DNA of 64,000 bases, from positions 2,177 through 66,176 of the forward strand of contig NHBO02000081.1 in assembly GCA_002167845.2 (NCBI GenBank), written 5' to 3'. The notes beneath the pieces were generated by a model that saw nothing but the letters and a program-made list of their open reading frames with translations, did not search any database and was not told the origin of the DNA. Source of the DNA: Phycisphaera sp. TMED9 (GTDB lineage Bacteria; Planctomycetota; Phycisphaerae; Phycisphaerales; SM1A02). Below, one piece after another: positions 8,469-31,026 of this stretch (position 1 is its first letter; every line of letters begins with the position of its first letter). The translations under genes were made by a program, and so were the position numbers.

Positions 8469-8504
8469 CAAGATGGTTCGAGTCGGGAGGAACCCGTCGA
8501 ACAG

Positions 8505-8851
8505 TGGAGCCGGGGGGATTCGAACCCCCGTCCCGAAACGTGCGGAAATCCGCGTCTACGCGTGTAGTCGTCCCTTGATCTCGTTCACGACCCGGAGGGT
8601 CGACGGCCCAAGCCGTGAACAAGGCATGCGAATGTCTCGATCCTCCAAGGCATGCCAGCCCTTCGGATCCAGCCCGATGATTTGCGGATTCCCGCCCCAT
8701 CGGGCGTCAGGCGGGAGTCCGTCACGGCGATCAGGCCGCGAGAGCGTACTGCGTGTTGGCAGATAAAAGTTTGCATCCTTTTTACGTGGCATGGATGCTC
8801 CACGACGCGCAACGAAAAACAGTCATCGTCCGGTCGAAACCAGTCGGCCCC
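8505..8851 (-). ncRNA. ssrA: transfer-messenger RNA (tmRNA)
   Basis: Reverse strand begins GGGGCCGACTGGTTTCGACC and ends GGGACGGGGGTTCGAATCCCCCCGGCTCCA. The 5' GGGGCCG pairs with 3' CGGCTCC (one G-U), a T-arm is present and CCA is encoded. An internal tag reading frame ends in YALAA*. Confidence 0.93.
8731..8760 (-). other. tmRNA proteolysis-tag reading frame: ANTQYALAA*
   Basis: Reverse complement GCC AAC ACG CAG TAC GCT CTC GCG GCC TGA = A N T Q Y A L A A stop, inside the tmRNA. Confidence 0.82.
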
Positions 8852-13834: not shown

Positions 13835-14184
13835 TATCCGGAGCATCTGATGGTCCCCGAGGGCCGAGTCCTGGATTCTCGGACGCGTTTCAAGATGGTC
13901 ATGCGGTCTGGATGATCTCCGCCGTCGATCGCTCTCTGGGAATGGGGTGCTTTGCTCATGGACGGATCGAGTCCTGGCCGTCGAGCGTCGAAGAACCTCT
14001 TGCCGGGCGATCGTCCGGTGATGAGCGTCGTCGCTGGAGGGAAGGACGACGCCCATCTTCGCCCGATCGGTCGTGGTGCGAACGATCGGGTGTTTCCGGC
14101 GGTGACCACGTGTGTCTCCGTGAACGGGCGGCTTCGGCCGCGATGAAACGACCAGGAACGAACTTCCCGCAAGGAGCTGGACAC

Positions 14185-14610
14185 ATGAACAAGCGTCGAA
14201 ACTCGTTGAAGCGTGGCTTCACTCTCATTGAAATCCTCATCGTCGTCGTGATCCTCGGGATCCTGGCCGCGATCATCATTCCGCAGTTCACGGACGCTGC
14301 TCAGGATGCCGGTGCCTCGAGCGCCCGCAGCCAGCTTCAGACGATGCGAAGCCAGATCGAGCTTTATCGTGTCCAGAACAATGGTGCGACTCCCGCCGAC
14401 GATGGTGCCGGTGCCGGCCCCTGGGCCGATCTGGTCGCCGAGAACTACATTCGCTCGGCCCCGAACTGGCCCAACGGATTCGAGTCCGTGTACAGCGCCA
14501 CGACCGGCGACCTCACGTTGACCTTCGATCTCACCCAGGGACCTTCTCCCGACCTCAATGGTGATGATGCCGGCGACAGCGCCGACGTCACGATCATCGA
14601 AGGCTGGTGA
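14185..14610 (+). CDS. Type II secretion GspG-like pseudopilin 1
   Basis: RGFTLIEILIVVVILGILAAIIIPQF prepilin motif; SD aaggagctgg upstream; C-term DLNGDDAGDSADVTIIEGW. Confidence 0.9.
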   Translation: MNKRRNSLKRGFTLIEILIVVVILGILAAIIIPQFTDAAQDAGASSARSQLQTMRSQIELYRVQNNGATPADDGAGAGPWADLVAENYIRSAPNWPNGFESVYSATTGDLTLTFDLTQGPSPDLNGDDAGDSADVTIIEGW

Positions 14611-14631
14611 ATCATCGACCTTGTTTGATAC

Positions 14632-14664
14632 CGGCGTTCCGGCTGAAAGGCCGGGACGCCGTTT
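14632..14664 (+). terminator. Strong intercistronic hairpin between the two pseudopilins
   Basis: cggcgttccggc-tgaaag-gccgggacgccg (12-bp stem, one G-U) followed by ttt. Confidence 0.6.
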
Positions 14665-14774
14665 CATCCGCCCCGTGTGAACGGGGTGGACTGGACCGAG
14701 CGTCCGAAAAGTACGTGTGCCATCGCGAGTTTCCGGGGGGAATAGAGGCTCTTTGCCTCGGAGGGAACAGCGAG

Positions 14775-15227
14775 ATGATGAACTCGAAGGACTACGACCA
14801 TTCAGGAACGCGCCGCGGATCACGGGGTTTCACCCTGATCGAGATTCTCATCGTGGTGGTCATTCTTGGAATCCTCGCCGCGATCATCATTCCGCAGTTC
14901 GCCAGCGCGCAGAGCGCCGCTCGTGCGACCGCCATGCGATCGCAATTGGGAACCGTCCGCAGTCAGATCGCCGCGTGGCAGGTCCAGAACGGTGGGCAGA
15001 TCCCCGGCGGTCCCGGTGGTACGGCCGAGGAGGCCATCGACACGCTCATCGCCGACGGCTACCTCACTCGAACCGTGTTCGTCTCACCCGGCTTCGTCTG
15101 GATCTGGGATTCCAGCCGTGCGGAGCTGGAGATCGAATACGACCCCTCCATCGACCCTTCGATTCCCGATGCGGACGGAGATGGTGATGGAGATGCGGAC
15201 GATATTGCCGTGATCCGAACCTGGTAG
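14775..15227 (+). CDS. Type II secretion GspG-like pseudopilin 2
   Basis: RGFTLIEILIVVVILGILAAIIIPQF prepilin motif; C-term DADGDGDGDADDIAVIRTW. Confidence 0.9.
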   Translation: MMNSKDYDHSGTRRGSRGFTLIEILIVVVILGILAAIIIPQFASAQSAARATAMRSQLGTVRSQIAAWQVQNGGQIPGGPGGTAEEAIDTLIADGYLTRTVFVSPGFVWIWDSSRAELEIEYDPSIDPSIPDADGDGDGDADDIAVIRTW

Positions 15228-15269
15228 GCGGTCCGACGTCGTGAAATCCTGATCCGAAAGGGAGGAACG

Positions 15270-15788
15270 ATGCTGGCTCATGACCTTCGATATCGCACAG
15301 GTTCCGTGCCATGGGGGCTGGTGACCGTCCTCGCGGCGCTGATGCTGCTCCTGCTCGGGCTGGGCCGGATCACGATGGATGCCCGCGGCTTTCAACGGTC
15401 GGCGGAATCCCAGCTTCGATCACGATTTCAACTCATGCAACAGATGGCACCACCGGGATCCCGAGTACTGGCCTGGCAATCAGATCCCGTCACCCGCGAT
15501 GTCGTCGTCGTCCTGCTGCGTGACGCAGGGGGGCTTGCGGACTGGAGGAACCTCATCGTCCTCTGGGATCGGGTCTCGGTGCCCGGGGTGCTGGTCGGCG
15601 TCGCGGATCGTCCGATCGATCTTCCGCTCGAGTCCGCAGGGACCGAGGCGTGGAGGCGCTTTCTCATGGATGTCCGGGTGCGACTGCTCCCCGTCGTGCG
15701 GCCCGATGCGCTGGGGATTCTGAATCGACCGGATCCTTCGGGTATCGGACCTCTGGTCCGGGTCGATGCGTGCCTGGAATCTCGATGA
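15270..15788 (+). CDS. Hypothetical membrane-anchored protein in pilus/T2SS operon
   Basis: SD gggagg before ATG; single N-terminal TM (GLVTVLAALMLLLLGLG). Confidence 0.65.
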   Translation: MLAHDLRYRTGSVPWGLVTVLAALMLLLLGLGRITMDARGFQRSAESQLRSRFQLMQQMAPPGSRVLAWQSDPVTRDVVVVLLRDAGGLADWRNLIVLWDRVSVPGVLVGVADRPIDLPLESAGTEAWRRFLMDVRVRLLPVVRPDALGILNRPDPSGIGPLVRVDACLESR

Positions 15789-15926
15789 ATCGGGTCGCCT
15801 GCGTTCTGAGCCGGTTCTTCGGGGCTTGAGGGACGCAGGACGCGGAATGGGGCGAAGTCCACGTCAGATCGCTGTTCAATCGTCCGATGACTCTCATGCG
15901 AAACACCTCCATTTGGGAATCAACGT

Positions 15927-16280
15927 ATGCGCCATGATCGATCTCTCCGGCATCTCCTGATGATGAACGCCATTCTTGCGGCTGGTCTCATCTGGACTCT
16001 TCTCGTCGTCACGGGGCCGTTCGCGGTCAACGCCGAGGCGGCGAATCAGTATCGATCGAGTCGGGCGAGCGGTCCGCCGGCGGAGGCGATCACCGGTGTG
16101 GGCAATGCTTCGGCTCGACAACGCAAGCAGATGATCGATCGCCTGACGGAGATCGAGAGCAAGGTCGATGAGATCACGAAGGCGATCACCTCCGGGTCGG
16201 TCACCGTCAAGATCGCGAACGTCGAGGAACTTGCGATCGATTACGGGCGCCTCGCGGACGCGATCCGGTCTCGCAAGTGA
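15927..16280 (+). CDS. Hypothetical small exported/membrane protein in pilus operon
   Basis: 117 aa, N-terminal hydrophobic segment, collinear with operon. Confidence 0.6.
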   Translation: MRHDRSLRHLLMMNAILAAGLIWTLLVVTGPFAVNAEAANQYRSSRASGPPAEAITGVGNASARQRKQMIDRLTEIESKVDEITKAITSGSVTVKIANVEELAIDYGRLADAIRSRK

Positions 16281-16302
16281 TTCACCGGAACTGGAGCGGC
16301 TC

Positions 16303-16872
16303 ATGCGCCATCTTCGACGCGGTTACACGCTCGCGGAACTCATCATCGTCATCGGGATTCTCGGCCTGGCGGGGGCGTTGCTGGTTCCTCGATTGATCAA
16401 TGCCGATACGTTCACGGTGCAGGCAGCGGTTCGATCCGTGATCGCGGACATCACCTTCGCGCAGACTGATGCGCTTGCCATGCAGAAGGTGAGGCGAGTG
16501 CAGTTCCTTCGGGATGAGAACGATCGCGTTCATGGATACGCAATTCTTGCTCCCTCGAACCCGGATCTCTACGACGGCCCCTTCGACGCGGAAACCGCGG
16601 AGTATCTCGATCATCCCTCGGCCATCGCGACGGGCGGGAACTTCATCGTCGATTTCGATCTCGAGGACCGCTTTGCAGGGGTCGAAATCACCGATGTCTC
16701 CTTCGACGGAAACGACTGGGTGGCCTTTGACGCCCTTGGAGGCCCCCTTCGGGGAGGCTCGCTCCCGCTCTCTGCGGGTGGGGAGATCCGGATGCGCGGG
16801 GTCAGCGGGTCCTATCTGATCCGATTGAGTGGATTCACGGGAAAGATCACCGTCGAACGGATCGATGAGTGA
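16303..16872 (+). CDS. GspH/FimT-like minor pseudopilin
   Basis: RRGYTLAELIIVIGILGLAGALLVPRL prepilin N-terminus (Y in place of F at +1 region). Confidence 0.8.
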   Translation: MRHLRRGYTLAELIIVIGILGLAGALLVPRLINADTFTVQAAVRSVIADITFAQTDALAMQKVRRVQFLRDENDRVHGYAILAPSNPDLYDGPFDAETAEYLDHPSAIATGGNFIVDFDLEDRFAGVEITDVSFDGNDWVAFDALGGPLRGGSLPLSAGGEIRMRGVSGSYLIRLSGFTGKITVERIDE

Positions 16873-16947
16873 CATGGGTCGGGTGGCTTCCTGCCGCTCA
16901 TATCGGTCGCGATCTCGCGACTGATGATCCGCCCGGAGGTCCTCACG

Positions 16948-18003
16948 ATGTCGATCAGATCGATATTCACCCCGCGACGAATTCCGCCGATCGGCGTCGA
17001 ATTCTCGGAAGACGGATTGCGACTGGCCCAGGTCGCGTCACCTGGGAGTGACGTGATTCGCCAGGTCGCCTTCGTCCCCTTCGGTCCTGATGGATCGGTC
17101 GACGTCACCGAGCTTCGGAAGGTCCTTCGAGGATTCCGTGGAAGGCAGGCGGCCATCGCACCACCTCGTGGTGATCTGACGATTCGACCGGCTCGACTGC
17201 CCCGGCTTGAGAATCAAGAACTTCGAGAGGCGGCCCGATGGGAAGCGGCCGGGCTGCTCGAGCTCGAAGCCGACGACGTCGTCGCGGAACCGCTCGTCGT
17301 CTCCAACGGTGTCGATTCCGATGGCTTGGCGGAAATGCTGATCGTCGCCGGATCGGTCACCACGATCGAATCGAGACTGGAACCGTTGCTGCAGGCGGGA
17401 TTGCATCCGATCGGGGTCGAACCGGCCTTCGTCGGTGCGGGCCGTGCGTTCACCATGAGATCCCGTCGTTCCGACGAGCAGGGCCGAATCCGGGTCGTGG
17501 TCGACGTGGCGGACACCGAATCCTGGATCGTGGTCACCCGAGGAGACAGCATCGTCTTCGCAAAGCGGAGTGACGTGGGTGGTTCCATGTTCGATGCCGA
17601 ACTCGGCGCCGCGCTGGGAATCGATGATTCGATGGCGCGGCGAACTCGTCGTGAGAGTGATCGTCGCGGACTGGAGCCGGAAGTTCTCGCGGAAGTGAAG
17701 ACGGCCGTTCGCCGTGCCGCGGGACCACTCGGGGACGAAGCCGGCATGGCGGTCCGCTACGTGACGGTCGCGGCACGACTCGGGAGACCCGAGTGTCTGC
17801 ATCTCTGTGGAGAAGCGGGGGGCTCGCCCGGACTCGTCGAGACTCTGTCCGCCGCCGTTCCCGGAATTCCGGTCGAACAGGATGAATTGGTCGTCAGCCG
17901 TCTCGCCGAGGCGTGCGGGCCCGATGCGACGCCTCTGGCCTGGGCCACCGCCTACGGCTTGTCGCTGCGACCGGTCGTGGACGCGGGGAGGCAGGCAGCA
18001 TGA
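16948..18003 (+). CDS. PilM-like pilus assembly/secretion ATPase-fold protein
   Basis: 'PIGVEFSEDGLRLAQVA...', 'PIGVEPAFVGAGRAF', 'DVADTESWIVVTRGDSIVFAKR' actin-fold PilM-like pattern; followed by PilN/PilO-like genes. Confidence 0.75.
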   Translation: MSIRSIFTPRRIPPIGVEFSEDGLRLAQVASPGSDVIRQVAFVPFGPDGSVDVTELRKVLRGFRGRQAAIAPPRGDLTIRPARLPRLENQELREAARWEAAGLLELEADDVVAEPLVVSNGVDSDGLAEMLIVAGSVTTIESRLEPLLQAGLHPIGVEPAFVGAGRAFTMRSRRSDEQGRIRVVVDVADTESWIVVTRGDSIVFAKRSDVGGSMFDAELGAALGIDDSMARRTRRESDRRGLEPEVLAEVKTAVRRAAGPLGDEAGMAVRYVTVAARLGRPECLHLCGEAGGSPGLVETLSAAVPGIPVEQDELVVSRLAEACGPDATPLAWATAYGLSLRPVVDAGRQAA

Positions 18004-18659
18004 ATGGTAGAAGCATGGATCTTCGCCCCGAATCCGTTCGGTGCCGGGTGGCATCGGCCCGGGAGAAGACGCATCTCCGGAACATGTCGGTCATCGCCGG
18101 AGTGCTGCTCACGGTGGCGTGGAGCACCGGTGCCTGGCGGCTTTCGGATGCCAGAGCCGAGCACGCGCAGGCCACCGCACAGGCGGAGGAGATTCTTCGC
18201 GTCGAGCAGGAACTGGCTCGAATCACTCTTCGATTCGACGAGGCCGGTCAGGCCCTGTCCGCGTGGAGGCGATGTTCGATTCCCTTCGGAGCCTCGACGA
18301 TCGTTGCTTCGATCGTCAACGATCTCCCGGAGTCGGGAACGATCGAACGAATCGAGCTCGATGCAGGATCATTGATGGCGAAACCGATTCGAGGAGCTCG
18401 TTCCCGGTCGGATCAGTCCGAAGTCAGACGAATCACCGCGGAGATCGAGGGGTTCACCGCCTCTGATGATGATGTCGCACTCTTCGTCGAAGCACTCCGG
18501 AATCGACCGCTTCTCAGGGATGTCCGAGTGGAGACGACTCGTCATCGGACGGTCGGAGAGGAAACCGCACGGGCCTTTCGAATCGCCTTTGACATCGATC
18601 TCAGTGTCGCGAGTCCGGTGCTTGCTTCGCCGGAATCAACCGAGGGCAAGAGCAAATGA
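18000..18659 (+). CDS. PilN-like protein
   Basis: Single N-terminal TM plus coiled coil; ATGA overlap with PilM-like gene. Confidence 0.6.
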   Translation: MNGRSMDLRPESVRCRVASAREKTHLRNMSVIAGVLLTVAWSTGAWRLSDARAEHAQATAQAEEILRVEQELARITLRFDEAGQALSAWRRCSIPFGASTIVASIVNDLPESGTIERIELDAGSLMAKPIRGARSRSDQSEVRRITAEIEGFTASDDDVALFVEALRNRPLLRDVRVETTRHRTVGEETARAFRIAFDIDLSVASPVLASPESTEGKSK

Positions 18660-19225
18660 GCAACGACAGGATCATTCAAGCCGCCTTCCTGCTGACCTTG
18701 TCCGGCGCGATGGCCGTGTGGTTCGGCATCGCACCGCTGCACGCCCGCGCCGACGCCCAGCAGGCGGAGACCGCGGCGCTCAGAGCGCGAGTCGCCGAAT
18801 CACCGGTGCCATCAGAGCGATTGACGCCATTTCGCACGGAACTCGATCGGCGATCGAAAATGCTCCGTGATGAATGCCCCGACCCTCTGATCGCGACCAA
18901 GCCCGATCTCGCCGGCGTCATTCGACGGCTCTCGTTGCCCATCGATGGTCAGCGAGTGATCGATCAGACCTTCACGGCGGAACGGAGCGGGCCGGTGGAC
19001 CTCGATTCCGAGATCAAGTGGAGCGCGACGCCCATCAGGATCGAATTGGTCGCCACCTGGTCCGCGATCGCGGAAGTGTTGGATCTCATCGAGACCATGC
19101 AGATCCCGAGCCGGGTCACCGAATTCCGGCTCGAGCGGGATTCGGATCCTGCCATCGAAATGGCGAGTGCTTTCATTGAACTGGACGTGTTGCACCGTCG
19201 AATCGCTTCGGAGGGTTCGAAATGA
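18656..19225 (+). CDS. PilO-like protein
   Basis: N-terminal TM and coiled coil; position after PilN-like gene; 4-nt overlap. Confidence 0.6.
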   Translation: MSNDRIIQAAFLLTLSGAMAVWFGIAPLHARADAQQAETAALRARVAESPVPSERLTPFRTELDRRSKMLRDECPDPLIATKPDLAGVIRRLSLPIDGQRVIDQTFTAERSGPVDLDSEIKWSATPIRIELVATWSAIAEVLDLIETMQIPSRVTEFRLERDSDPAIEMASAFIELDVLHRRIASEGSK

Positions 19226-19938
19226 ACCGTGAAACCGGCAACAGGAATCAACTGCCTCTCACGCGGGGACAACGCTTCCACGGTGTGATCGGGTCGGTTC
19301 GTACCCGATCCGGAAGAGTCCTTCGCTTCGCCTCCCGGCGGAACACGGTCCTCTCCGGGCTCGTGCTCGCGATTCCGATGGCGGCGCTGGCTCAGCCGCT
19401 CGGACTCCTGCTCTGGGCCAGGCTCCGTCTTCTGACGACGATTCCACGCACCGCGATGGCCACGGAAGATCCTTCGAAGCTCGCCGTCGTCGAGGTCCCG
19501 ATGTTCCCGGACCTTCCCGAGTCGGGGCTGGACGACGCGATCGGGCGGGATCCACTTCGAATCAGTCCGCGCCACTTCCCCAGATCCACACCTTCTGCTT
19601 TGGAGACCGAGGTTGCACCGAAGTCGGGCTCGCAGAACGTCGAGGAAGAGGATCGAGAGGAACAATTGGTGCAGGAGCGACTTGCATCGATCGTTTCAGA
19701 AATTCGTGTGCAGGGTCTGATCCCTGGTCGGGGCGTCGCACTGATCGACGGTCGGGCATGCAAGATCGGGGACGAGGTCCCCACGAAGGTCGATGGAGTC
19801 ACCTTCCGCCTCCTTCAAGTTCGAATGGGATCGGTCGTGATGGATGCCGGGGGGCATGAATTCACTCTCCGGTTGATCGCGGGAGGCAACGGATCTGTCG
19901 TCATCCGCCCTGAGGGCGAGGAGCTCAAACAACCATGA
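19222..19938 (+). CDS. PilP/GspC-like protein
   Basis: TM then C-terminal 'VQGLIPGRGVALIDGRACKIGDEVPTKVDGVTFRLLQVRMGSVVMDAGGHEFTL' resembling a PilP/GspC HR domain; 4-nt overlaps both sides. Confidence 0.55.
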   Translation: MNRETGNRNQLPLTRGQRFHGVIGSVRTRSGRVLRFASRRNTVLSGLVLAIPMAALAQPLGLLLWARLRLLTTIPRTAMATEDPSKLAVVEVPMFPDLPESGLDDAIGRDPLRISPRHFPRSTPSALETEVAPKSGSQNVEEEDREEQLVQERLASIVSEIRVQGLIPGRGVALIDGRACKIGDEVPTKVDGVTFRLLQVRMGSVVMDAGGHEFTLRLIAGGNGSVVIRPEGEELKQP

Positions 19939-22412
19939 AGCAACAATCACTCTTCCATCAGACCCTTCGCGGCATCGGGCTCTCGCTCGGTGTGTTCGCA
20001 TTGACTTGTGTCCCCGTCTTCGCAGACGGGTTCGGTCAGGATGATGCGCCGGACTCCGTCGACGAAACGCTCGACCTGACCGGCGTCGAGGTCGATGACT
20101 TCGACACCTTCAATATTCAGGTCCAGGACACGGATCTGGCCCAGGTTCTCCAGATGCTCGCCCTGCAGGGCGAGCGGAACGTCATCGCCAGTCGGAACGT
20201 TTCGGCGGTCATCACCGCGAACCTCTTCGACGTCACGTTCGAGGAGGCCCTCGACGCGATTCTGAAGCCCAACGGGTTTCGATGGGTGGAAGAGGGCAAG
20301 TTCATCTACGTCTACACCCAGGAGGAATTCGCTCGGATGGAGGCGCTCGATCGAAAGACCGAGAGCCGCATGTTCGAGCTCGAGCACCTCTCCGCTCGCG
20401 ACGCGAGTGAATTCGCGACTCCGCTCCTGTCGGATCGCGGCAAGCTGAGTTTCATCGGCGAAGTCACTGGTGGCATCGAGCGCGATCTCGGTGACATGGG
20501 CGGCGACAACTGGTCCAAGTCCGCGATTCTCGTGGTGAATGACTATCCCGATCGTCTCGAGCGGATCGCCGAACTCATCGCCGAGATCGACACCGCGCCG
20601 CGACAGGTCGTCGTCGATGCCACCATCGCCAGCGTCGCCGTGGTCGAGGAAGACGCCTTCGGGGTCGACTTTTCGATCATGGGAAACCTCGACATCACCC
20701 AGCTGGTGTCTCCCCTCGGTCCGGTGACGGATCTTCTTCGTGGTTCTGTCCCTCCGAACAACGGCGGGGTGAACCAGCCGGTCTACTCCGGGGACAACAC
20801 GGCCTGGGGAACGCAGTCCACACCGGGGAACACCAGCAGTGGCAAGTCCAACTTCATGGTGGGGCTGGTCGCGGGTGACGCCTCGGTCTTCGTTCGAGCC
20901 CTCGACCAGGTGACGGACACCATGGTGCTCGCTCGGCCGCGAATCATGGCTCTGAACCGACAGCGGGCACAGGTGATGGTGGGCAAGCGAGTCGCGTATC
21001 TCTCGACGACCGCGACCGACACGACTTCGACGCAGACGGTTCAGTACCTCGACACCGGTGTGAAACTGATGATCCGTCCCTTCATCTCGAAGGACGACAC
21101 CATTCGCATGGAGGTCTATCCGAGCGTTTCCAGCGCCGAGTTGAGAAAGATCAGAAACGGCAACCTCGGCAACGAGATCGAGGTTCCGGATGAATTCACC
21201 AACGAGATCTCGACGAACGTCAAGGTCCGGAACGGCGAGACGCTGGTCCTTGGTGGGCTGTTTCAGGAACAGACGACCATTTCGAACAGTCAGGTTCCCT
21301 TCCTTGGGGACGTTCCTCTCCTCGGTGCGGCCTTCAGTGGTCATGACAACACCGTCGATCGCCGGGAGATCATCTTCATGATCACTCCGAAGATCGTGGA
21401 AGACCGGCTCATCGAAGAGTCCGGTCGCCAGGGAATGGCGTTCGTGAACTCGCTGCGAGCGGGGATGCGAGAAGGGCTTCTTCCCTTCAGCCGTGAGAAG
21501 ATGAGTTCGCAGCAGAATCAGGACGCTTTCGAGGCGATGAAGTCGGGCAACTCCGAGCTGGCGCTCTTTCACTTCGACAACTCGCTTCGACTGAATCCGG
21601 GACAGCCCGAAGTCCGTCGACTGCGGGCTGAAGCAGCCGGTGAGTCCGATGGTGGCTACTACGATTACGACATCTGGCGCCGCGTCATGCAAGAACAGCA
21701 CGCGGACCATGCTGAGCAGAAGGACGACGAGGCTCGGTTGAACTCCGAGGTCGATCCGCTGGCGGCTGCCGGTCTCGAGGCGACGACGCGATCCGAGGAG
21801 CGGGAAGACCGTTTTCTCGACGCGTTGGTGAGCGACCTCGAGCGAGAGTCGGCGATGTTCGGCGACGCTGGACCCGCCACTGATTCGTCGGCGGCTGAAA
21901 TCTTCGTCGTCGATGCAGATCCGATGTCCGTGGATCGGGCGTTCGGCGACATGACGGACGACTTCGGCGACGAAGGGGATTCGTCGAGCATGAATATGAA
22001 TGTTGAAGCGGTGACCGACGCCGTGATCGCAGATGCCGGGAGCGAAGGCGGGTTCTCGACGGAAGTCGTGTCGGATTCGTTCGAATCACCCGCCACGGAG
22101 TTTCCCACCGAGAAACCTGCGGCCGCCACAGGGCTCGCCACGGCGATGAACCCCGGGACGTTCGAGGCACCCGCGACACCGTTGCTTGCCATTGAAGTTC
22201 CCGTCACTCCGGTCGATCGGTCGGAGGAGTTCACCACCGAGGATGCGTTGGAAGTGGTGGCCGAGGCGCAGCAGGTTCTGGTCGCCGCACCGCAGAGTCC
22301 GGTCTGGGGTCGGCTCTGGTGGCTCGCTCGAGTCGCATCGGAGCAGGCCCGGACGTTCTCCAGAGACACCATGCCGGCCATCGAGATGGTGACCGCCGAA
22401 GAACAGGACTGA
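19935..22412 (+). CDS. Type II/IV secretion system secretin (GspD/PilQ) with long acidic C-terminal extension
   Basis: N0/STN-like domain, secretin core 'DNEISTNVKVRNGETLVLGGLFQEQTT...VPFLGDVPLLGAAF...REIIFMITPKIVEDRL', then ~320-residue extension. Confidence 0.9.
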   Translation: MKQQSLFHQTLRGIGLSLGVFALTCVPVFADGFGQDDAPDSVDETLDLTGVEVDDFDTFNIQVQDTDLAQVLQMLALQGERNVIASRNVSAVITANLFDVTFEEALDAILKPNGFRWVEEGKFIYVYTQEEFARMEALDRKTESRMFELEHLSARDASEFATPLLSDRGKLSFIGEVTGGIERDLGDMGGDNWSKSAILVVNDYPDRLERIAELIAEIDTAPRQVVVDATIASVAVVEEDAFGVDFSIMGNLDITQLVSPLGPVTDLLRGSVPPNNGGVNQPVYSGDNTAWGTQSTPGNTSSGKSNFMVGLVAGDASVFVRALDQVTDTMVLARPRIMALNRQRAQVMVGKRVAYLSTTATDTTSTQTVQYLDTGVKLMIRPFISKDDTIRMEVYPSVSSAELRKIRNGNLGNEIEVPDEFTNEISTNVKVRNGETLVLGGLFQEQTTISNSQVPFLGDVPLLGAAFSGHDNTVDRREIIFMITPKIVEDRLIEESGRQGMAFVNSLRAGMREGLLPFSREKMSSQQNQDAFEAMKSGNSELALFHFDNSLRLNPGQPEVRRLRAEAAGESDGGYYDYDIWRRVMQEQHADHAEQKDDEARLNSEVDPLAAAGLEATTRSEEREDRFLDALVSDLERESAMFGDAGPATDSSAAEIFVVDADPMSVDRAFGDMTDDFGDEGDSSSMNMNVEAVTDAVIADAGSEGGFSTEVVSDSFESPATEFPTEKPAAATGLATAMNPGTFEAPATPLLAIEVPVTPVDRSEEFTTEDALEVVAEAQQVLVAAPQSPVWGRLWWLARVASEQARTFSRDTMPAIEMVTAEEQD

Positions 22413-22529
22413 TTCACCCGCACGACGGGGGGGTCGCCGATCGTGCGATCCCTCTCGTCGTCAACGATCACTCTTCGACCTGAAGTCAGGTCCCGACTCC
22501 GCAGGATCGCACCCAGCCAGGATCGCACC

Positions 22530-23741
22530 ATGATCAATCGAACCAACACCCTGACCCTCATCGCCGGCATGACTCTCCTCCTCGGCACCACGGCCTGCAC
22601 CGGCCCGACCAAGAAGGGAATCGAAGCACGAGCCGCCGCACAGACCCGATTCGATTCGGTTCGCAGTCGAGTCGATTACGACCAGGCTGATCAGGCGTTT
22701 CGGGCCGGAGACTTCGTGACTGCGAAGAGTCATCTGGACGCGGCGATCAAGAAGATCGACGACGATGCCGACTACTGGGTGCTGATGGGCCGTGTCTACC
22801 TCGAGAACGGAAGTCTCGGTGATGCTGCCACCAGCTTTGACAAGGCTCATCTGCTCGATGCCGAAAACGCCGATGCCTGTTACTTCCAGGGAATCGTCGA
22901 TCAACGCTTGAATCGTGGCCAGGACGCCGTCGCGCACTATCTCGAAGCGCATGAGATTGCGCCAAGCAACCCCGGGATGCTGGTCGCCGCGGTGGACACG
23001 CTGATCGGCGAGGGTGACTTCGACGAAGCTGATCGGGTGTTGCGCGAGAAGCGTTCCGATTTCAGCGAGGCTTCGGCGATCCATCATCTCTCCGGCCGCG
23101 TCGCCATGTTGAAGAAGCGGTGGAATGAGGCCGTGGAACATCTGGAGCGTGCGGTTCTTCTCGACGACGAAGATCGTTGGATGCTCGAGGATCTGGCGCG
23201 AGCCCAGATGTCGGCGCATCGAACCAGTGATTGCCTGCAGACGATCGATCGCCTGGTGGAGATCTCGGAAGCCGGAGACCAGGATCGCGAGCTGATGCGC
23301 ATGCGAGGTCGTTGTCTGGCCGCCGGCGAACGGTTCCGGGAGGCCCGGACGGTGTTTCTCGACTTCACGAACCTTCATCCCGAGGATGCCGAAGGATGGA
23401 TCGATTTCGGGCTGATGTGCCTCGAAGTCGAAGACTATCGCCGCGTGGTTCGAGCCGGACAACGCCTGGTCGTGCTGCAGCCGAACGAGTTCGAGGGGTA
23501 CTTCCTTCTCGGTCAGGCAGCGATGCGGGAAAAGGAATACACGACCGCCGGAACGCTCTTCAAGCGAGCGGTCGACGTTGCGCCTGATCGTGACGAAGCG
23601 AAATTGGCACTCGGCATGGTCTACGAACTCCAGGGTGAGTATGCCGCGGCCTATCGGGTGTACGCGGGACTGATGAAGTCGAACCCCGAAGATCACCGGG
23701 TCCGACATCTTCTCACCGGAGTCGGAGAACAGCTCGATTGA
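22530..23741 (+). CDS. TPR-repeat (lipo)protein, candidate secretin pilotin-like partner
   Basis: N-term MINRTNTLTLIAGMTLLLGTTACTGP; several TPR-like repeats. Confidence 0.75.
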   Translation: MINRTNTLTLIAGMTLLLGTTACTGPTKKGIEARAAAQTRFDSVRSRVDYDQADQAFRAGDFVTAKSHLDAAIKKIDDDADYWVLMGRVYLENGSLGDAATSFDKAHLLDAENADACYFQGIVDQRLNRGQDAVAHYLEAHEIAPSNPGMLVAAVDTLIGEGDFDEADRVLREKRSDFSEASAIHHLSGRVAMLKKRWNEAVEHLERAVLLDDEDRWMLEDLARAQMSAHRTSDCLQTIDRLVEISEAGDQDRELMRMRGRCLAAGERFREARTVFLDFTNLHPEDAEGWIDFGLMCLEVEDYRRVVRAGQRLVVLQPNEFEGYFLLGQAAMREKEYTTAGTLFKRAVDVAPDRDEAKLALGMVYELQGEYAAAYRVYAGLMKSNPEDHRVRHLLTGVGEQLD

Positions 23742-23784
23742 GCTGGAGTCCGTTCCGCCCGCACTGGTTGAGAGCAGGGAGGCT

Positions 23785-25092
23785 GTGGTGTTCGACTCGT
23801 CTTCGATCCTGATCGCCGTCATCGCCTGCGCTCTGGGCGTGGTGTTGACGTCGTGGCGAAATCGCCGGCGAATTCGCCTTGCCTGTGCCGATCCCGGCTC
23901 GGCTCGGATCTCGGTCCCGGTGATCTCGGAACTGCACGAACGATTCCAGAACGAACGAGATTCACGTGATGAAGAACAGGTGCTCGCACGTCGTATCGCC
24001 GAGGAGAGGGCGACTCGATTCGAACGGATGTTCACCTCGTTCGAGGATCCGATCCTGGTGCTCGATCGTCACGGTGAGGTCGTCGAAGCGAATCCCGCAG
24101 CGCTGAGACTTGCCGGTCTCGAGCTGGACGAGGTCGTGGTGGACGCCGTTCACCCCCGACCGATCTCCATGATGATCTCCGATCAAGCCGCGGCCGAGGA
24201 GATCCATGCGGTCTCGAGGATGGTGGTGGACGGTGAATCGGACGGCCAGCGTCGCACCGTCTTCGAACTGAACGCGGATGGCGAGAAGACGCGGACGCGA
24301 GCCTTCGAGGCGGTGATCCGTGCGCTTGATGCCAACGGCCGCACGTTGGTCGTCCTGCATGAGACGACTCGCGAACGGGAAATGGCCCGGCTCAAGAGTG
24401 AGTTCGTCGCGAAGGCGAGTCATGAACTTCGTACTCCCCTGAGCTCGATTCGAGCCTCGCTTGAGATGCTCTCCGACGGTGAGCTTCAGAACCCCGAGCA
24501 ACGAGCGGAGTTCCTGGGAATCGCGATGGAGGAGACGGACCGGCTGGCGAAGCTCGTCAACGACATGCTGGACATCAGTTGCATCGAAGCGGGCGTCGCC
24601 CGACCTCGCATCGGTCGTGTCGAGCTTGGTGAGATCGCCAACGACGTGGTGGACGGCCTTCGGGCCGCCGCGGAACGGAAATCCGTCGACCTGCGAATTC
24701 ACGCGGAGGCCGGACTCGCCGTGGACGGTGATCCGGAGATGCTCTCGGCGGTCATCGGGAATCTGGTGGGAAATGCGCTCAAGTACGTTCCCGAGGGTGA
24801 GCGGGTCACCGTGACGGTCGATGCCGAGGATCTGACTCGATCGGTCGTGGTCACCGTCACCGACACGGGGCTGGGCATTCCCCCCGAGGACATCGATCGG
24901 CTCTTCGAGAAGTTTTATCGGATCAAGCGATACGAGCGTACTGCGCGGGGAACGGGCCTCGGCCTCAATCTTTGTCGAAACATCATTGAGCAGGTTCATC
25001 AGGGCCGCATCGGAGTCGATTCAAGACTAGGTGAGGGGGCTCGCTTCTGGTTCAGCGTGCCTGCCTCGCATCCTGCATCGATGGCGGCCTGA
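23785..25092 (+). CDS. PAS-containing sensor histidine kinase
   Basis: N-terminal TM, PAS-like 'FEDPILVLDRHGEVVEANPAALRLAG', H-box 'FVAKASHELRTPLSSIRASLEML', N/G boxes 'NLVGNALKYVPEG','DTGLGIPPEDIDRLFEKFYRI...GTGLGLNLC'. Confidence 0.95.
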   Translation: MVFDSSSILIAVIACALGVVLTSWRNRRRIRLACADPGSARISVPVISELHERFQNERDSRDEEQVLARRIAEERATRFERMFTSFEDPILVLDRHGEVVEANPAALRLAGLELDEVVVDAVHPRPISMMISDQAAAEEIHAVSRMVVDGESDGQRRTVFELNADGEKTRTRAFEAVIRALDANGRTLVVLHETTREREMARLKSEFVAKASHELRTPLSSIRASLEMLSDGELQNPEQRAEFLGIAMEETDRLAKLVNDMLDISCIEAGVARPRIGRVELGEIANDVVDGLRAAAERKSVDLRIHAEAGLAVDGDPEMLSAVIGNLVGNALKYVPEGERVTVTVDAEDLTRSVVVTVTDTGLGIPPEDIDRLFEKFYRIKRYERTARGTGLGLNLCRNIIEQVHQGRIGVDSRLGEGARFWFSVPASHPASMAA

Positions 25093-25518
25093 ATGAAAAA
25101 CGATCAAGACACCGGCAACTCAACGATTCTGGTCGCCGATGACGAGGAGTACATCGTCAGGGTGGTCGCATTCAAGCTTCGCGGCGCGGGCTACGACGTG
25201 ATCGAAGCCGTCGACGGCGAGGATGCATGGTCGAAGGTTCGCGCGGGGGGGATCGATCTGGTCCTCACCGATCACCAGATGCCCTTGATGACCGGCCTCG
25301 AACTGGCTGGTCGGATCGCCGACGAGCCGAATACCCGTCACATCCCGGTCTTGATGCTGACCGCGAGAGGTTTTCGTCTGGACGCCGAGGAGATCGTGGC
25401 GAGTCGCATCGTCGAACTGATCGCAAAGCCGTTTTCGCCGCGGGTGCTCCTCGATCGGGTTCGAGCGACCCTCGATGCCCGTACCTTCGGAAGCGATTCC
25501 ATCGGGGAGGCCGCATGA
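25093..25518 (+). CDS. Single-domain response regulator (receiver)
   Basis: 'ILVADDEEYIVRVV...DLVLTDHQMPLMTG...IPVLMLTA...IAKPFSPRVLLDRV'. Confidence 0.93.
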   Translation: MKNDQDTGNSTILVADDEEYIVRVVAFKLRGAGYDVIEAVDGEDAWSKVRAGGIDLVLTDHQMPLMTGLELAGRIADEPNTRHIPVLMLTARGFRLDAEEIVASRIVELIAKPFSPRVLLDRVRATLDARTFGSDSIGEAA

Positions 25519-27101
25519 CCTCGACCTCGACCAACAAGACGAGTGCCATCGAACTGGTGATCGCCGGTGATCTGGCTGGAGTCGGAGCCGCCTGGATCTC
25601 CATCGAGAACGGTGTTCCCCGATGGTCGACCGTGGATGATCCGGTCGGAGCCTGGCGACAGGCGTTGCTGGTTGGTGCCATGCCGGTTCGGGAAGCCGTC
25701 CGAAAGAACCTCTCGGTGCTGATGACCGGAGAGGGAGGAGCCTGCGAGCTCTTCCCGGGAGTCATGGCGATCGGATGCGTTTCAGAGACTCGTCGCGGAA
25801 GATGCGAAGGAGTCGCGGTGCTCCCCACGAGTGAACTGATCACCGAGGGGTCGCTGTCGATGTTGTGTAACGCGGCGAAGGTCGACGAAACGGTCATCCG
25901 TGGCTTTGCGAGTCGGGATGCACTTCCACCCCGTGAAGCGATTCCGGCCATCACCGACCTTGTTCGTCGGCTCCATGTGAGCGCCAGACGGCGCATCGAG
26001 GAGCGTGAAGCGGCGCACTCCGTCGACCGCCGATTGTCTGAAAGCTACGAGGAGCTTCATCTCCTCAATTCGCTCATCGACGGCCTGGTCGTCGGGGGAG
26101 ATCCCGGGGACTTCCTGGTGTCGGCGGCCGAAGAACTTGCCGCGACCGCGGGATACAGTTGGATCGCCATTCTTCTGGACGATCCCGGGGCTTCGAAAGT
26201 CGACGATTTCGTGGTCCACGGCAGTGGGGCACCGACTCGTGCCGAGGTGAGACTGATCGCGGAATCCGCGTCCACCAGCACCGCCACGGTCGTGCTCGAT
26301 CCAGCCTTCGGCGAAATGGGACTTGCGGCCGTTCGAGGCGGCGATCGGAATCTCGGCACGCTCGTCGCCGGGGGCCGCGCCGGTGAACCGATCTCCAGCA
26401 TCGAGTTGACGCTGCTGGCATCCGCCGCCGGTCACCTCGGAGTGTTCCTTCGAAACGCCGCGCTGTACTCGGACCTGGACGCGATGTTCCTGGGAACTCT
26501 GCAGTCGATGGTCGCCGCGATCGATGCAAAGGATCCCTACACCCGTGGTCACTCGCAAAGAGTGGCGATTCTGAGTCGGGATCTGGCGGCCGCGATCGGA
26601 CTTCCCGAGGCGTTCGTCAAGACCGCTCACCTGTCGGGACTGGTTCACGACATCGGGAAGATCGGAGTGCCCGAAGCCGTGCTGTGCAAGGCGGGGCGAC
26701 TCGACGAGTCCGAATTCGCCGCCATCCGCCAGCATCCGCAGATCGGATTCCGGATCCTCAGGGACATTCCCCAGATTCGTGATCTGCTCCCGGGGGTTCT
26801 GTGTCATCACGAATCGTGGGACGGCTCTGGATATCCTGCGGGCATCGCCGGCGAGGAGATTCCGCTGCTGGCCCGCATCATCGCGATCTGCGACAGCTTC
26901 GATGCGATGAGCTCGAACCGAACCTATCGAAGTGCCAAGCCTCGTCAGAAGGTCTTCGAGGAACTCCGGAATTGCCGGGGCTCCCAGTTCGATCCGTCGA
27001 TCGTTCCGGTCTTCCTGGGAATGGATTTCACCGAATACGACCGTCTGCTCGCCCGCGATGCGGATGGTTTCGGTCTCGCCGATGATCGGAGGGTGGCATG
27101 A
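25515..27101 (+). CDS. GAF/HD-GYP domain protein
   Basis: 'LSGLVHDIGKIGVPEAVL', 'CHHESWDGSGYPAGIAGEEIPLLARIIAICDSFDAMSSNRTYR' HD-GYP hallmarks; ATGA overlap with the receiver gene. Confidence 0.93.
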   Translation: MTSTSTNKTSAIELVIAGDLAGVGAAWISIENGVPRWSTVDDPVGAWRQALLVGAMPVREAVRKNLSVLMTGEGGACELFPGVMAIGCVSETRRGRCEGVAVLPTSELITEGSLSMLCNAAKVDETVIRGFASRDALPPREAIPAITDLVRRLHVSARRRIEEREAAHSVDRRLSESYEELHLLNSLIDGLVVGGDPGDFLVSAAEELAATAGYSWIAILLDDPGASKVDDFVVHGSGAPTRAEVRLIAESASTSTATVVLDPAFGEMGLAAVRGGDRNLGTLVAGGRAGEPISSIELTLLASAAGHLGVFLRNAALYSDLDAMFLGTLQSMVAAIDAKDPYTRGHSQRVAILSRDLAAAIGLPEAFVKTAHLSGLVHDIGKIGVPEAVLCKAGRLDESEFAAIRQHPQIGFRILRDIPQIRDLLPGVLCHHESWDGSGYPAGIAGEEIPLLARIIAICDSFDAMSSNRTYRSAKPRQKVFEELRNCRGSQFDPSIVPVFLGMDFTEYDRLLARDADGFGLADDRRVA

Positions 27102-27433
27102 AGCTTCGATTCGAAGATCACGGTCGTCTCTGTGTGGTGCAGGTCGATGGGGAATGTGTCGGCGAATCCGCGGAATCGCTTCGGCGAGCGTGCGTCGAGC
27201 GGTTCACGGGCGGTGCCAAGGACGTCATTCTCGACGTCTCGAAGACGTCGCTCATCGACTCGGCCGGCCTCGAGGTTCTTCTGGATCTCACAGATCTCGC
27301 GACGGAACAAAGAGGGCGTTGCCTTCTCGCCGGTCCCGAAGACCCCCTGCGATCGATTCTGGAGATCACACGAATCGCCGATCGCCTCGAGGTTCATGAT
27401 GCGGTCGAATCGGCAGCGAGGGTACTGCGATGA
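27098..27433 (+). CDS. STAS-domain protein (anti-sigma factor antagonist-like)
   Basis: 'DVILDVSKTSLIDSAGLEVLLDLTDLATEQRGRCLLAG' STAS signature; 4-nt overlaps with flanking genes. Confidence 0.88.
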   Translation: MKLRFEDHGRLCVVQVDGECVGESAESLRRACVERFTGGAKDVILDVSKTSLIDSAGLEVLLDLTDLATEQRGRCLLAGPEDPLRSILEITRIADRLEVHDAVESAARVLR

Positions 27434-29172
27434 AGACACGTGAATCCGAAACACGTCAGTCGGAACGATCCGCCATGATCACGACTTCCGCCCCGCTCGG
27501 TGAGGTGTTGGTCGAGTCCGGTCGGATCACCCGCACCCAGCTTGAGACGGCGCTCTCGGCGCAGCGCGACGGTGGTGACCATCGGCTGCTCGGAGAAGTG
27601 CTGGTGTCGCTTGGTTTCGCCGATGAAGTGAGCGTCGCCGAGGGGCTCGCCACGGGCTGCGGACTTCCGTTCGTTCGAGAACCCGCCAGAATCGCGGACC
27701 CCGCCGTGGTGGAACTTCTTCCGCGAGACTTCGCACGACAGCATCGAGTTCTTCCGCTCTTCCTCGTTCGAGGAACCCTGACCATCGCTGCGGCGGAACC
27801 TTCGAATCTCTACCTGTTCGAGGAGATCGCCCGGCGAACCGGCCATCGCGTGCAGGTCGCCGCGGCAGCCGCGAGCGAACTCGAGAACGCGATCGAGAAC
27901 TGGCTCCCCGCCGCGAATGTCTTCGTGATCGACGACATCCACGACGGCGTGGGGGATGCGGATCTCACTGTTCTTGAACGGCAGGTCTCCGAACTCACCG
28001 ATCTGGCGGAAATCGCCGGTCACGGGCCGGTGGTCCGTCTGGTGAACTGGTTGATTCATGATGCGGTCGAGGACGGTGCCAGCGACATCCATGTCGAGCC
28101 CGGCGACCGTGACCTTCGCGTTCGATTTCGGATCGATGGTCGCCTGCATGAGAAGATCAGGCCTCCTCATCGCATGGGGCCGGCGATCACGAGTCGAATC
28201 AAGATCATGGCCGAGTTGGACATCGCCGAGCGACGACTTCCTCAGGACGGCGACATTCACGTGCTGCTCGACGGCCGACGCGTCGATCTTCGGGTGTCGA
28301 CGATGTCGGGTCGTCAGGGTGAGAAGGTGGTCATTCGAATCATCGACAGTCGCAATGCGATCGTCGCTCCGGAACGCCTGGGAATGGCACCGCAGATTCG
28401 CGATCAGTGGTCGGGTCTGTTGGCGGCCGCCAATGGCGTCGTCCTGGTCACCGGTCCCACCGGAAGCGGCAAGAGCACCACGCTGTATTCGGCGCTGGGT
28501 GCGATGGACGCCGACACGCTGAACCTCTCGACGATCGAGGATCCGGTCGAAGCGGTGATCCCCGGCGTCAATCAGTTCCAGGTCAATGACCGGACTGGAT
28601 TCGGCTTCTCTTCGGCGCTGCGATCGATGCTTCGCCAGGATCCCGATGTGGTCATGGTGGGGGAGATCCGAGATGAAGAGACGGCCGCCATCGCGGCTCA
28701 GGCTGCGCTGACCGGGCATCTCGTGCTGTCCTCCCTTCATACCAACGATGCCTGTGCCGCCCCAGTGCGGCTGATGAACCTCGGGGTCGAATCGTTCCTC
28801 GTCGCAACCGTGTTGCGCGGGGTGTTGGCGCAGAGACTGGTCCGCCGTGTCTGCCCGCAGTGTCGACGCGAGGTCGAAGTCGAAGAAGGCGTCCGGCGGA
28901 TGGTCGAGGCCGTGGCGCCGGTCGAGGTCTTCCAGGCGGGCGAAGGATGTCAGCGTTGTCGTGGAACCGGCTTCAGTGGCCGCGTCGGCGTGTTCGAACT
29001 GCTTGCGCCGAACGATGCGATCTGTGACGCGATCGCGTCCGCGATTCCGCATCGCGAACTGGCGGAAGTGGCTCGAGGCCAGGGATTCGAGTCGATGAGG
29101 GTCGACGGCCTGCGCAAGGTCGCCGAAGGCATGACGACTTTCGAGGAGGTGCTCGCGGCCACCGCCGCGTGA
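27430..29172 (+). CDS. Type II/IV secretion assembly ATPase (GspE/PilB)
   Basis: Walker A GPTGSGKST, Asp box, 'RQDPDVVMVGEIRDEETA', tetracysteine 'CPQCRREV...CQRCRGTGFSGRVGVFELL'. Confidence 0.95.
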   Translation: MKTRESETRQSERSAMITTSAPLGEVLVESGRITRTQLETALSAQRDGGDHRLLGEVLVSLGFADEVSVAEGLATGCGLPFVREPARIADPAVVELLPRDFARQHRVLPLFLVRGTLTIAAAEPSNLYLFEEIARRTGHRVQVAAAAASELENAIENWLPAANVFVIDDIHDGVGDADLTVLERQVSELTDLAEIAGHGPVVRLVNWLIHDAVEDGASDIHVEPGDRDLRVRFRIDGRLHEKIRPPHRMGPAITSRIKIMAELDIAERRLPQDGDIHVLLDGRRVDLRVSTMSGRQGEKVVIRIIDSRNAIVAPERLGMAPQIRDQWSGLLAAANGVVLVTGPTGSGKSTTLYSALGAMDADTLNLSTIEDPVEAVIPGVNQFQVNDRTGFGFSSALRSMLRQDPDVVMVGEIRDEETAAIAAQAALTGHLVLSSLHTNDACAAPVRLMNLGVESFLVATVLRGVLAQRLVRRVCPQCRREVEVEEGVRRMVEAVAPVEVFQAGEGCQRCRGTGFSGRVGVFELLAPNDAICDAIASAIPHRELAEVARGQGFESMRVDGLRKVAEGMTTFEEVLAATAA

Positions 29173-29176
29173 AGCC

Positions 29177-30406
29177 ATGAACGAAACCGCCACATGGTCC
29201 TGGCAGGCTCGAGATGCGACCGGTCGCCTGCTGCGCGGTACTCAGGCGGCGGCTGACGCGGCGGAGGTCGCCTCCAGACTTCGTGCGGAAGGACGAATCG
29301 TCCTCTCGATCGACCGAGCCATGCGGGATGGCATTCAATCCGCGGTCAAGCGAAGACCCTTCGCTGGAAGAGTCTCTTCGGCGGCCGTCGCATCCTTCAT
29401 CAGACAGCTTTCGGTCATGCTTGACGCCGGGGTGCCGGTGGTCGAAGCGATCGAAGTGGTTCGCCTCCAGACGGCCGATCAGAGATTGTCCGGTGAACTC
29501 GCGGTGGTTCGGGACGAGGTCGAGAACGGCGGTTCGCTCAGTGATGCGTTCGCCAAATTCCCCTCGACGTTCCCACCGGTTGCGGTGGGCCTGGTGAGAG
29601 CGGCCGAAGCGGTCGGCGATCTCTCCGGAATGTTCGAGCAACTCGCCGACTGGCTCCAGCGCGAACAACGGATTCGGCGGCAGGTCCGATCCGCTCTGGC
29701 ATATCCCGTGCTCCTGGCGATCGTGGGTTCCCTGATCACCATCCTTCTCGTCACCTTCGTGATGCCGCGATTCGAAGCGATCTATGCGCAGCGATCCGCG
29801 GATCTTCCGCCGTTGACCGAGGCGGTTCTCGGGGTCGGCCGGTTCATCACCTCCGGCTGGAAGGTCTGGGTTCCAAGTCTCGCCGTCGCCGTCGCATTCG
29901 GGGGATTCGCGAGGCGCACGCGATTCGTGCATCGAATGCTCGAGCACGTCCGGTTTGATGCGCCCTTGCTTCGAAGTGTGATCCGTCCCGCGGATCTCGC
30001 CCGTGCAACCCGGACGCTCGGGGTTCTCCTGACCGCCGGTGTTCCACTGCTCGATGCGATCACGATCTGTCGTGGACTCTCTCCCTGGAGTCGTTGGTCG
30101 AGATTCTGGGATCGGATCGAAGAAGGGGCTCGGAACGGTGATGGCATCGCCGATCGCTTCGAGGGGGGAGATCTCGTACCCGGGAGCGCCCGAGCGATGA
30201 TCGCTGCAGGTGAACGGTCGGGAAGACTCCCGGCGGTTCTGAACCGAGTCGCTGATGCGGCCGACGAGGATCTGGAAGTCGCGGTAAAACGGGTCTCGGT
30301 GATGCTCGAACCGCTGGCGATCGTGGTGCTGGGTAGCGTGATCGGAATCGTCGCCATCGCCTTGCTGCTGCCCGTGTTCAAGATGAGCACGATCGCCGGC
30401 GGCTGA
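29177..30406 (+). CDS. Type II/IV secretion inner membrane protein (GspF/PilC)
   Basis: 'FIRQLSVMLDAGVPVVEAIEVV', 'MIAAGERSGRLPAVL', three TM segments. Confidence 0.93.
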   Translation: MNETATWSWQARDATGRLLRGTQAAADAAEVASRLRAEGRIVLSIDRAMRDGIQSAVKRRPFAGRVSSAAVASFIRQLSVMLDAGVPVVEAIEVVRLQTADQRLSGELAVVRDEVENGGSLSDAFAKFPSTFPPVAVGLVRAAEAVGDLSGMFEQLADWLQREQRIRRQVRSALAYPVLLAIVGSLITILLVTFVMPRFEAIYAQRSADLPPLTEAVLGVGRFITSGWKVWVPSLAVAVAFGGFARRTRFVHRMLEHVRFDAPLLRSVIRPADLARATRTLGVLLTAGVPLLDAITICRGLSPWSRWSRFWDRIEEGARNGDGIADRFEGGDLVPGSARAMIAAGERSGRLPAVLNRVADAADEDLEVAVKRVSVMLEPLAIVVLGSVIGIVAIALLLPVFKMSTIAGG

Positions 30407-30754
30407 AAACTTGAGAAATTCAAAGGCGTTTTCGAACCCGCCAGGGCCATTGGGGCTGGGGTACTTCCCCCCATGCGCGGGTGGGGCCGAAAGATCGTGG
30501 AGCGGGCGGCCTTGTGTCGATGTTCTTCGAGGTCGCGATCAGGGACGCAGCGATCGCGAGGAACAGGCTCGGCTAGGGACCCTCGGTGGGGCGCATCACG
30601 GATGATCGTTCGCCGCCGAATCCCGATCTCGTCTGCACGGATGCAGTCGAAACCAGCCGGGAAACAAGGGTTGGATCACGGAAGGTCCACTTTTTCGACT
30701 TCACCCGATGATTCGGGGAACGTCAACAGGTTCTGCGTCGTAGGGAACATCGTC

Positions 30755-30973
30755 ATGCCTAGTAAAAAGAACAGCGACAACGATGGACTGAGACGACGTG
30801 CGGCACGGATGGCCGCATCGCTCGACCCCCGTGACCACGCCGTGCTGGCCCTTCGCTTCGGCGAAAACCTCAGCGTGGGTGAGACGGCGGCGGTGCTCAA
30901 GATGAACCCGGACGAAGTTCGTTCGGCGGTGAATCGTGCAGTCGGCATGTTGCATCGGACCGACACGGCCTGA
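30755..30973 (+). CDS. Stand-alone sigma-70 region 4-like HTH protein
   Basis: 72 aa 'SLDPRDHAVLALRFGENLSVGETAAVLKMNPDEVRSAVNRAVGMLHR'; no region 2 upstream. Confidence 0.65.
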   Translation: MPSKKNSDNDGLRRRAARMAASLDPRDHAVLALRFGENLSVGETAAVLKMNPDEVRSAVNRAVGMLHRTDTA

Positions 30974-31026
30974 TGAGTCGGACTTGCATCCCGGACTAGA
31001 GACACCAGAACGTCCTCGCGATGGCT

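Follow-up and report, generated by a model that had tools for sequence, protein, structure and literature searches.

A kinase-receiver-HD-GYP-STAS gene block inside a type IV pilus operon of Phycisphaerae as a candidate control module of the PilB motor

Control of type IV pili by a histidine kinase and an HD-GYP protein is described for RpfC/RpfG of Xanthomonas, reportedly by contact with motor proteins, and RpfG acts on PilT/PilU with GGDEF and PilZ proteins as intermediates (PMC3749722). Pairing of a small STAS protein with an ATPase is known from Escherichia coli MlaB-MlaF, where Thr52 of MlaB, at the SpoIIAA phosphosite, lies in the interface and the T52E substitution weakens binding (PMC7367683). 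The Pseudomonas HptB-HsbR-HsbA-HsbD pathway combines a STAS-type anti-anti-sigma protein with an enzyme of cyclic di-GMP (c-di-GMP) metabolism and affects type IV pili (PMC5085249). The assembly ATPase MshE of Vibrio cholerae carries at its N-terminus an MshEN domain, a c-di-GMP receptor made of two 24-residue motifs, RLGxx..Q (PMC5013675), and the HD-GYP fold is represented by the structures of PmGH (4mcw) and V-cGAP3 (5z7c). Here we analyse a stretch of 64,000 nucleotides from Phycisphaera sp. TMED9 (contig NHBO02000081.1, positions 2,177 to 66,176; hereafter the window), in which the genes of a histidine kinase, a stand-alone receiver, an HD-GYP protein and a STAS protein stand within a type IV pilus operon, directly before the gene of the assembly ATPase PilB.

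Pfam and NCBIfam matches gave the operon order PilM-PilN-(O)-(P)-PilQ-TPR-HK-RR-HD-GYP-STAS-PilB-PilC (HK, histidine kinase; RR, receiver), and each domain of the four-gene cassette scored far above its Pfam cut-off. The source contig (C51) belongs to a 3.3 Mb genome, and those of its near relatives that bear names are metagenome-assembled genomes of Phycisphaerales. The cassette and the motor gene are arranged as follows.

23785..25092, + strand: histidine kinase with an N-terminal hydrophobic segment, PAS, HisKA (H213) and HATPase_c (HisKA 74, HATPase_c 108, PAS 31 bits)
25093..25518, + strand: stand-alone receiver, D60 (PF00072 Response_reg, 78 bits)
25515..27101, + strand: GAF-like, coiled coil, GAF-like, HD-GYP protein with H378 D379, H431 H432 and G439 Y440 P441 (PF13487 HD_5, 122 bits)
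27098..27433, + strand: stand-alone STAS protein, D54 and S55 (PF01740, 55 bits)
27430..29172, + strand: PilB assembly ATPase with MshEN, second half-site degenerate (T2SSE 426, MshEN 64 bits)

Each of the described systems resembles this locus in part. RpfC/RpfG likewise brings a kinase and an HD-GYP domain to type IV pili; however, receiver and HD-GYP form one protein in Xanthomonas and are separate genes here, the rpf genes lie outside the pilus operon, the ATPases concerned are those of retraction, and no STAS protein takes part. MlaB, too, is a small STAS protein with a Ser/Thr at the SpoIIAA phosphosite (Ser55 here), and it is the dedicated partner of an ATPase. MlaF, however, belongs to the ABC ATPases, the final strand and helix that SpoIIAA shares with the present STAS protein are missing from MlaB, and contact of STAS with PilB is a proposed one. 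The Pseudomonas pathway differs in its gene set, its location outside the pilus operon, its diguanylate cyclase and its PP2C-type regulator. Unlike MshE, PilB of the window type mostly lacks the Arg of motif I, and lacks both Arg and Gln in motif II. The HD, HH and GYP residues of PmGH and V-cGAP3 are conserved in the HD-GYP protein, which also has a GAF domain in common with PmGH, but it apparently carries two GAF-like domains and is coupled to a separate receiver, and its activity is a predicted one.

The open reading frames, coordinates and junctions of the original prediction, which had been made from the letters of this DNA, proved base-exact on re-check. The HK stop codon (TGA, 25090-25092) abuts the receiver ATG at 25093, and ATGA overlaps join RR to HD-GYP (25515-25518), HD-GYP to STAS (27098-27101) and STAS to PilB (27430-27433). 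Among the 42 collinear loci described below, the 4-base overlap (a gap of -4) recurs at RR/HD-GYP in 38/42, at HD-GYP/STAS in 35/42 and at STAS/PilB in 16/42. Among possible starts, the one closest to the stop of the preceding gene was picked, which biases toward small gaps, and the junctions TPR/HK, HK/RR and PilB/PilC, treated in the same way, served as control; these show a gap of -4 in only 5-8 of 42, and random sliding of the stop yields it at 0.7-1.7%. The overlaps are commoner than at the control junctions and in the sliding null, which argues against chance. For PilB, the start at 27430 is favoured by an N-terminus conserved in close relatives. A start of PilB/GspE at 27475, which would abolish the last overlap, was rejected, since among the four closest relatives three have Val in place of this internal ATG. 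A scan of positions 14000-31000 yielded no sigma-70-like promoter, which is weak evidence and uninformative for such a genome, and terminator-like sites at chance rate with no excess, equally uninformative for this organism.

With the HD-GYP protein as query, 60 loci were retrieved from 55 family- and order-level genomes and annotated against the window proteins. TPR-HK-RR-HD-GYP-STAS-PilB-PilC is collinear on one strand in 42 loci, each from a separate genome (42/55 genomes), and three further loci at this level are interrupted by contig ends. At the class level, HK-RR-HD-GYP-STAS-PilB recurs in 15 of 21 more loci, mostly from other orders, and two of these 21 lack the kinase only. One set of 198 genomes was searched twice, independently, and the coordinates were compared. 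An HD-GYP match is listed for 130 class genomes, and in 95 of these a cassette-type STAS gene comes directly after it; a STAS match is listed for 109 genomes, and in 93 of these the best STAS is the one behind HD-GYP. Rearranged loci keep the parts close together: in L109 a divergent RR-HD-GYP pair adjoins HK-STAS-PilB-PilC, and in L112 the same four genes lie within a few kb of a separately transcribed RR-HD-GYP pair. The cassette had been proposed to be tightly coupled to the gene of the assembly ATPase, a claim meant to fall if relatives did not keep it beside pilus genes; the neighbourhood search bears it out. Judged from gene order, the arrangement is ancient and conserved. In one close relative (L062), the HD-GYP frame is broken in two near residue 428, maybe by a sequencing or assembly error of that genome.

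Outside the class, occurrence is known from a sample of genomes. The best HD-GYP homologues there (19 loci) include none with cassette plus pilus genes around them (one, L168, is RR-HD-GYP-GGDEF ended by a contig edge), and none of the HD-GYP loci of other phyla (L013-L028) has a pilus cassette. HD-GYP was dropped as the anchor, and the use of PilB, then STAS, in its place uncovered variants with a GGDEF gene. L187 and L189 read HK-RR-GGDEF-STAS-PilB-PilT-PilC, and L196 reads HK-RR-HD-GYP-GGDEF-STAS-PilB (L195 is alike but interrupted). L188 and L192 are HK-RR-STAS-PilB with no enzyme gene, and six further loci (L190, L191, L193, L194, L204 and L205) are reduced to PilQ-STAS-PilB-PilC, without kinase, receiver or enzyme. 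The cyclases in the enzyme slot carry GGEEF. Because a GGDEF cyclase and an HD-GYP phosphodiesterase occupy the same place, this exchange points, more than any other observation, to a slot for c-di-GMP enzymes, and it backs the cyclic-dinucleotide role first suggested for this position.

The STAS gene stays where the enzyme changes. A STAS profile was run against 159 genomes of the phylum, some of the returned loci having gone into building it. Of the best 30 STAS loci, 23, among them the first 18, have the STAS gene as the immediate neighbour in front of PilB. Two families outside the class that had been left out of the profile yet have STAS-PilB (L220 and L227), and five further STAS loci were likewise not part of it. 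PilB-linked STAS genes occur in nine families outside the class, a patchy distribution given about 70 families sampled. On this evidence, the feature of the arrangement that is kept most deeply is a STAS gene immediately in front of PilB. The linkage follows one PilB lineage: when PilBs from 47 selected rows are placed in a tree, it requires 2 changes against 9.2 expected with shuffled labels (0 of 500 shuffles as low), consistent with a single gain, and a single loss in the PilB clade of the type found on contig C66. Many class genomes also encode another PilM-N-O-PilB system, one that lacks STAS (in the source genome on C66, L178; also L197 and L199-L202), and its PilBs group in a single clade nested next to those linked to STAS.

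The other genes of the operon are listed next.

14607..15227, + strand: pilin/pseudopilin-like protein with N_methyl signal, GspG/PilA-like (PF07963, 34.9 bits)
16168..16872, + strand: pilin/pseudopilin-like protein (PF07963, 21.4 bits)
16924..18003, + strand: PilM (PF11104, 31.5 bits; TIGR01175, 50 bits, under cut-off)
17988..18659, + strand: PilN, start uncertain (PF05137, 27.9 bits)
18656..19225, + strand: PilO position, no Pfam match; named from position and conserved order
19222..19938, + strand: PilP position, no Pfam match; named from position and conserved order
19935..22412, + strand: PilQ secretin (PF00263, 150 bits; top NCBIfam match TIGR02515 PilQ)
22443..23741, + strand: TPR protein (TPR families; order conserved)
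29177..30406, + strand: PilC inner-membrane platform protein (PF00482, 189 bits)

One locus thus holds the a-type pilus gene set of PilM-N-(O-P)-Q, PilB, PilC and pilins. In four relatives (L145, L146, L155 and L187), an ATPase of the PilT/PilU family lies between PilB and PilC (TIGR01420; 377-430 bits, cut-off 319), and the top NCBIfam match of the secretin is PilQ, yet under the cut-off of that model. Because the operon of relatives has PilT, the secretin is nearest to PilQ, and PilM and PilN are present, the machine is, on its gene content, a type IV pilus and not a type II secretion system (T2SS). The original prediction had spoken of a T2SS/type IV pilus assembly operon; its second half stands, and its first is disfavoured. 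The source genome has a PilT-like frame on contig C74, outside the window operon and between two further PilB-like genes, in a PilB-PilT-PilB-PilC cluster (L177). Presence of PilT inside the operon varies within the class (it is found in L142, L145, L146, L149 and L155), and none was seen in the operon of the window. Apart from the operon, the window holds a tmRNA gene at 8502-8851 on the - strand (Rfam RF00023, 158 bits).

The residues expected of active proteins are kept. Among the 43 sequences compared, HK H213 (43/43), receiver D60, T90 and K112, the HD residues of HD-GYP and the Walker A residues are invariant, and the HH and GYP residues are nearly so. Asp54-Ser55 of STAS is invariant in the 43 as well; in the wider set used for this protein, Ser55 is still invariant and Asp54 mostly kept. 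The AlphaFold2 model of the HD-GYP protein (predicted local distance difference test, pLDDT, 85; predicted template modelling score, pTM, 0.52) comprises two GAF-like domains with a long helix between them, followed by HD-GYP, and its top Foldseek match is PmGH 4mcw, a GAF-HD-GYP phosphodiesterase. For the STAS protein (model pLDDT of 94), the nearest structure is SpoIIAA bound to SpoIIAB (1thn; TM 0.93), and the match to MlaB is weaker (0.62).

Composition, coupling, conservation, enzyme swap and the co-inheritance of STAS with one PilB lineage can all be read from the sequences. Because the order is shared, the linkage withstands rearrangement, the enzyme is swapped, STAS follows one PilB lineage and the active residues are kept, we regard it as probable that the cassette is a dedicated type IV pilus control module built into the pilus operon, in which HK-RR-HD-GYP-STAS would feed the motor. 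The membrane-anchored PAS kinase would phosphorylate the co-made receiver, which in turn would control the GAF-GAF-HD-GYP enzyme, in the manner of a split RpfG-type regulator. Around the base of the pilus, the enzyme would bring down the level of c-di-GMP or of a similar cyclic dinucleotide. STAS, gated at Ser55, may bind PilB or its platform and so set whether the motor assembles pili, a step resembling the action of MlaB on the ATPase MlaF. RpfG-PilT/PilU and MlaB-MlaF provide precedents from elsewhere for each type of step. A more specific version is advanced tentatively, as possible: STAS would be a dedicated phospho-gated subunit of PilB, and in Planctomycetota the two-component genes and the exchangeable HD-GYP/GGDEF block would feed this switch locally.

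Several observations weigh against the proposed module. The kinase is missing from TPR-RR-HD-GYP-STAS-PilB-PilC in L154 and L155, and HD-GYP is located apart from the cassette in some genomes. By sequence, the HD-GYP protein is slightly nearer to V-cGAP3, an enzyme acting on 3'3'-cyclic GMP-AMP (cGAMP), than to PmGH, and its substrate could be cGAMP. The putative contact of STAS with PilB is read from gene order and from co-inheritance with the PilB lineage. Finally, the MshEN domain of the window PilB reads P-LG...Q in motif I and L-LG...G in motif II, which departs from the two-motif receptor. Across the 43 sequences, motif I keeps LG and Gln, with Arg changed to Pro/Gln in most, and in the degenerate motif II Arg is Leu in 43/43 and Gln mostly Ala/Gly. 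Because the second half-site has lost Arg and Gln, direct sensing of c-di-GMP by this PilB is doubtful, and the early proposal that c-di-GMP acts via PilB is weakened, although the domain passes the NCBIfam MshE c-di-GMP model anyway (NF053729, 46 bits against a cut-off of 38). The outer residues of motif II are retained in the PilBs of L192, L195 and L196 and in a C74 paralogue; one PilB of L177/C74, unlike that of the window, fits a relaxed MshEN motif in both halves. The c-di-GMP signal may instead pass via STAS, a PilZ protein or another receptor, the source genome having three GGDEF and two PilZ matches. With these GGDEF matches, a genome without c-di-GMP synthesis, which would have sunk the proposed module, was rejected.

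The main rival is partner switching on a sigma factor, which we consider unlikely. STAS would then be an ordinary anti-sigma-factor antagonist, phosphorylated at Ser55 by an RsbW-type kinase whose gene lies elsewhere and restored by a PP2C phosphatase, and it would act on the transcription of genes for the pilus or the cell surface, not on PilB itself. The SpoIIAA-like fold and the invariant, phosphorylatable Ser55, as in SpoIIAA/RsbV, speak for it, as do two HATPase_c_2 kinases and four SpoIIE phosphatases in the genome and a sigma-70 region 4 protein just downstream (30473-30973). However, both RsbW-like kinases lie on other contigs (C15 and C46), each adjoining a STAS gene of its own, STAS stays by PilB in the nine families outside the class even without HK, RR and enzyme, and the sigma-like protein stands beside the operon almost solely in the closest relatives. 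That protein, on the + strand directly behind PilC, matches sigma-70 region 4 only; it accompanies the operon in L059-L065 and weakly in L066. Slightly more improbable still is that STAS binds and controls the cyclic-dinucleotide enzyme (HD-GYP/GGDEF) and not the motor. The STAS gene follows the enzyme gene directly in most clusters, mainly with the 4-base overlap, and Pseudomonas offers precedents in HsbA linked to HsbD and SiaC activating SiaD (PMC5085249, PMC8457831), but STAS remains by PilB in seven loci without an enzyme gene (L188 and the six reduced ones). It is quite improbable that the cassette is a general c-di-GMP regulator which shares the pilus transcript so that its level tracks piliation, with no action on the machine: HD-GYP enzymes can act on the whole-cell pool, the MshEN site is half lost and the genome has few other c-di-GMP genes, but the linkage holds across the class and through rearrangements, and STAS lies between enzyme and motor gene with overlapping ends.

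The components and the control of pili by c-di-GMP are already known; a built-in block, an exchangeable enzyme and a long-lived STAS-PilB pair were not found described, and a search of the open-access literature, subscription journals being outside its coverage, returned no account of STAS-PilB or of a planctomycete pilus/HD-GYP link. Direct control of the PilB motor by STAS does not appear to have been described. A few proteobacteria, with the genes scattered, are known to control pili by c-di-GMP and by two-component systems; here sensor, relay, cyclic-dinucleotide enzyme, switch and motor are kept together in one class-wide block, and relatives that retain STAS-PilB have an enzyme of the opposite chemistry instead. 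With four small genes it becomes testable whether STAS acts as a gate on the motor of a type IV pilus, and by what route the local c-di-GMP enzyme gets to it. Type IV pilus proteins were abundant in the proteome of a phycisphaeral genome that, in a Synechococcus co-culture, favoured the attached fraction (PMC7029141), and the cassette may be a control point for attachment in Phycisphaerae.

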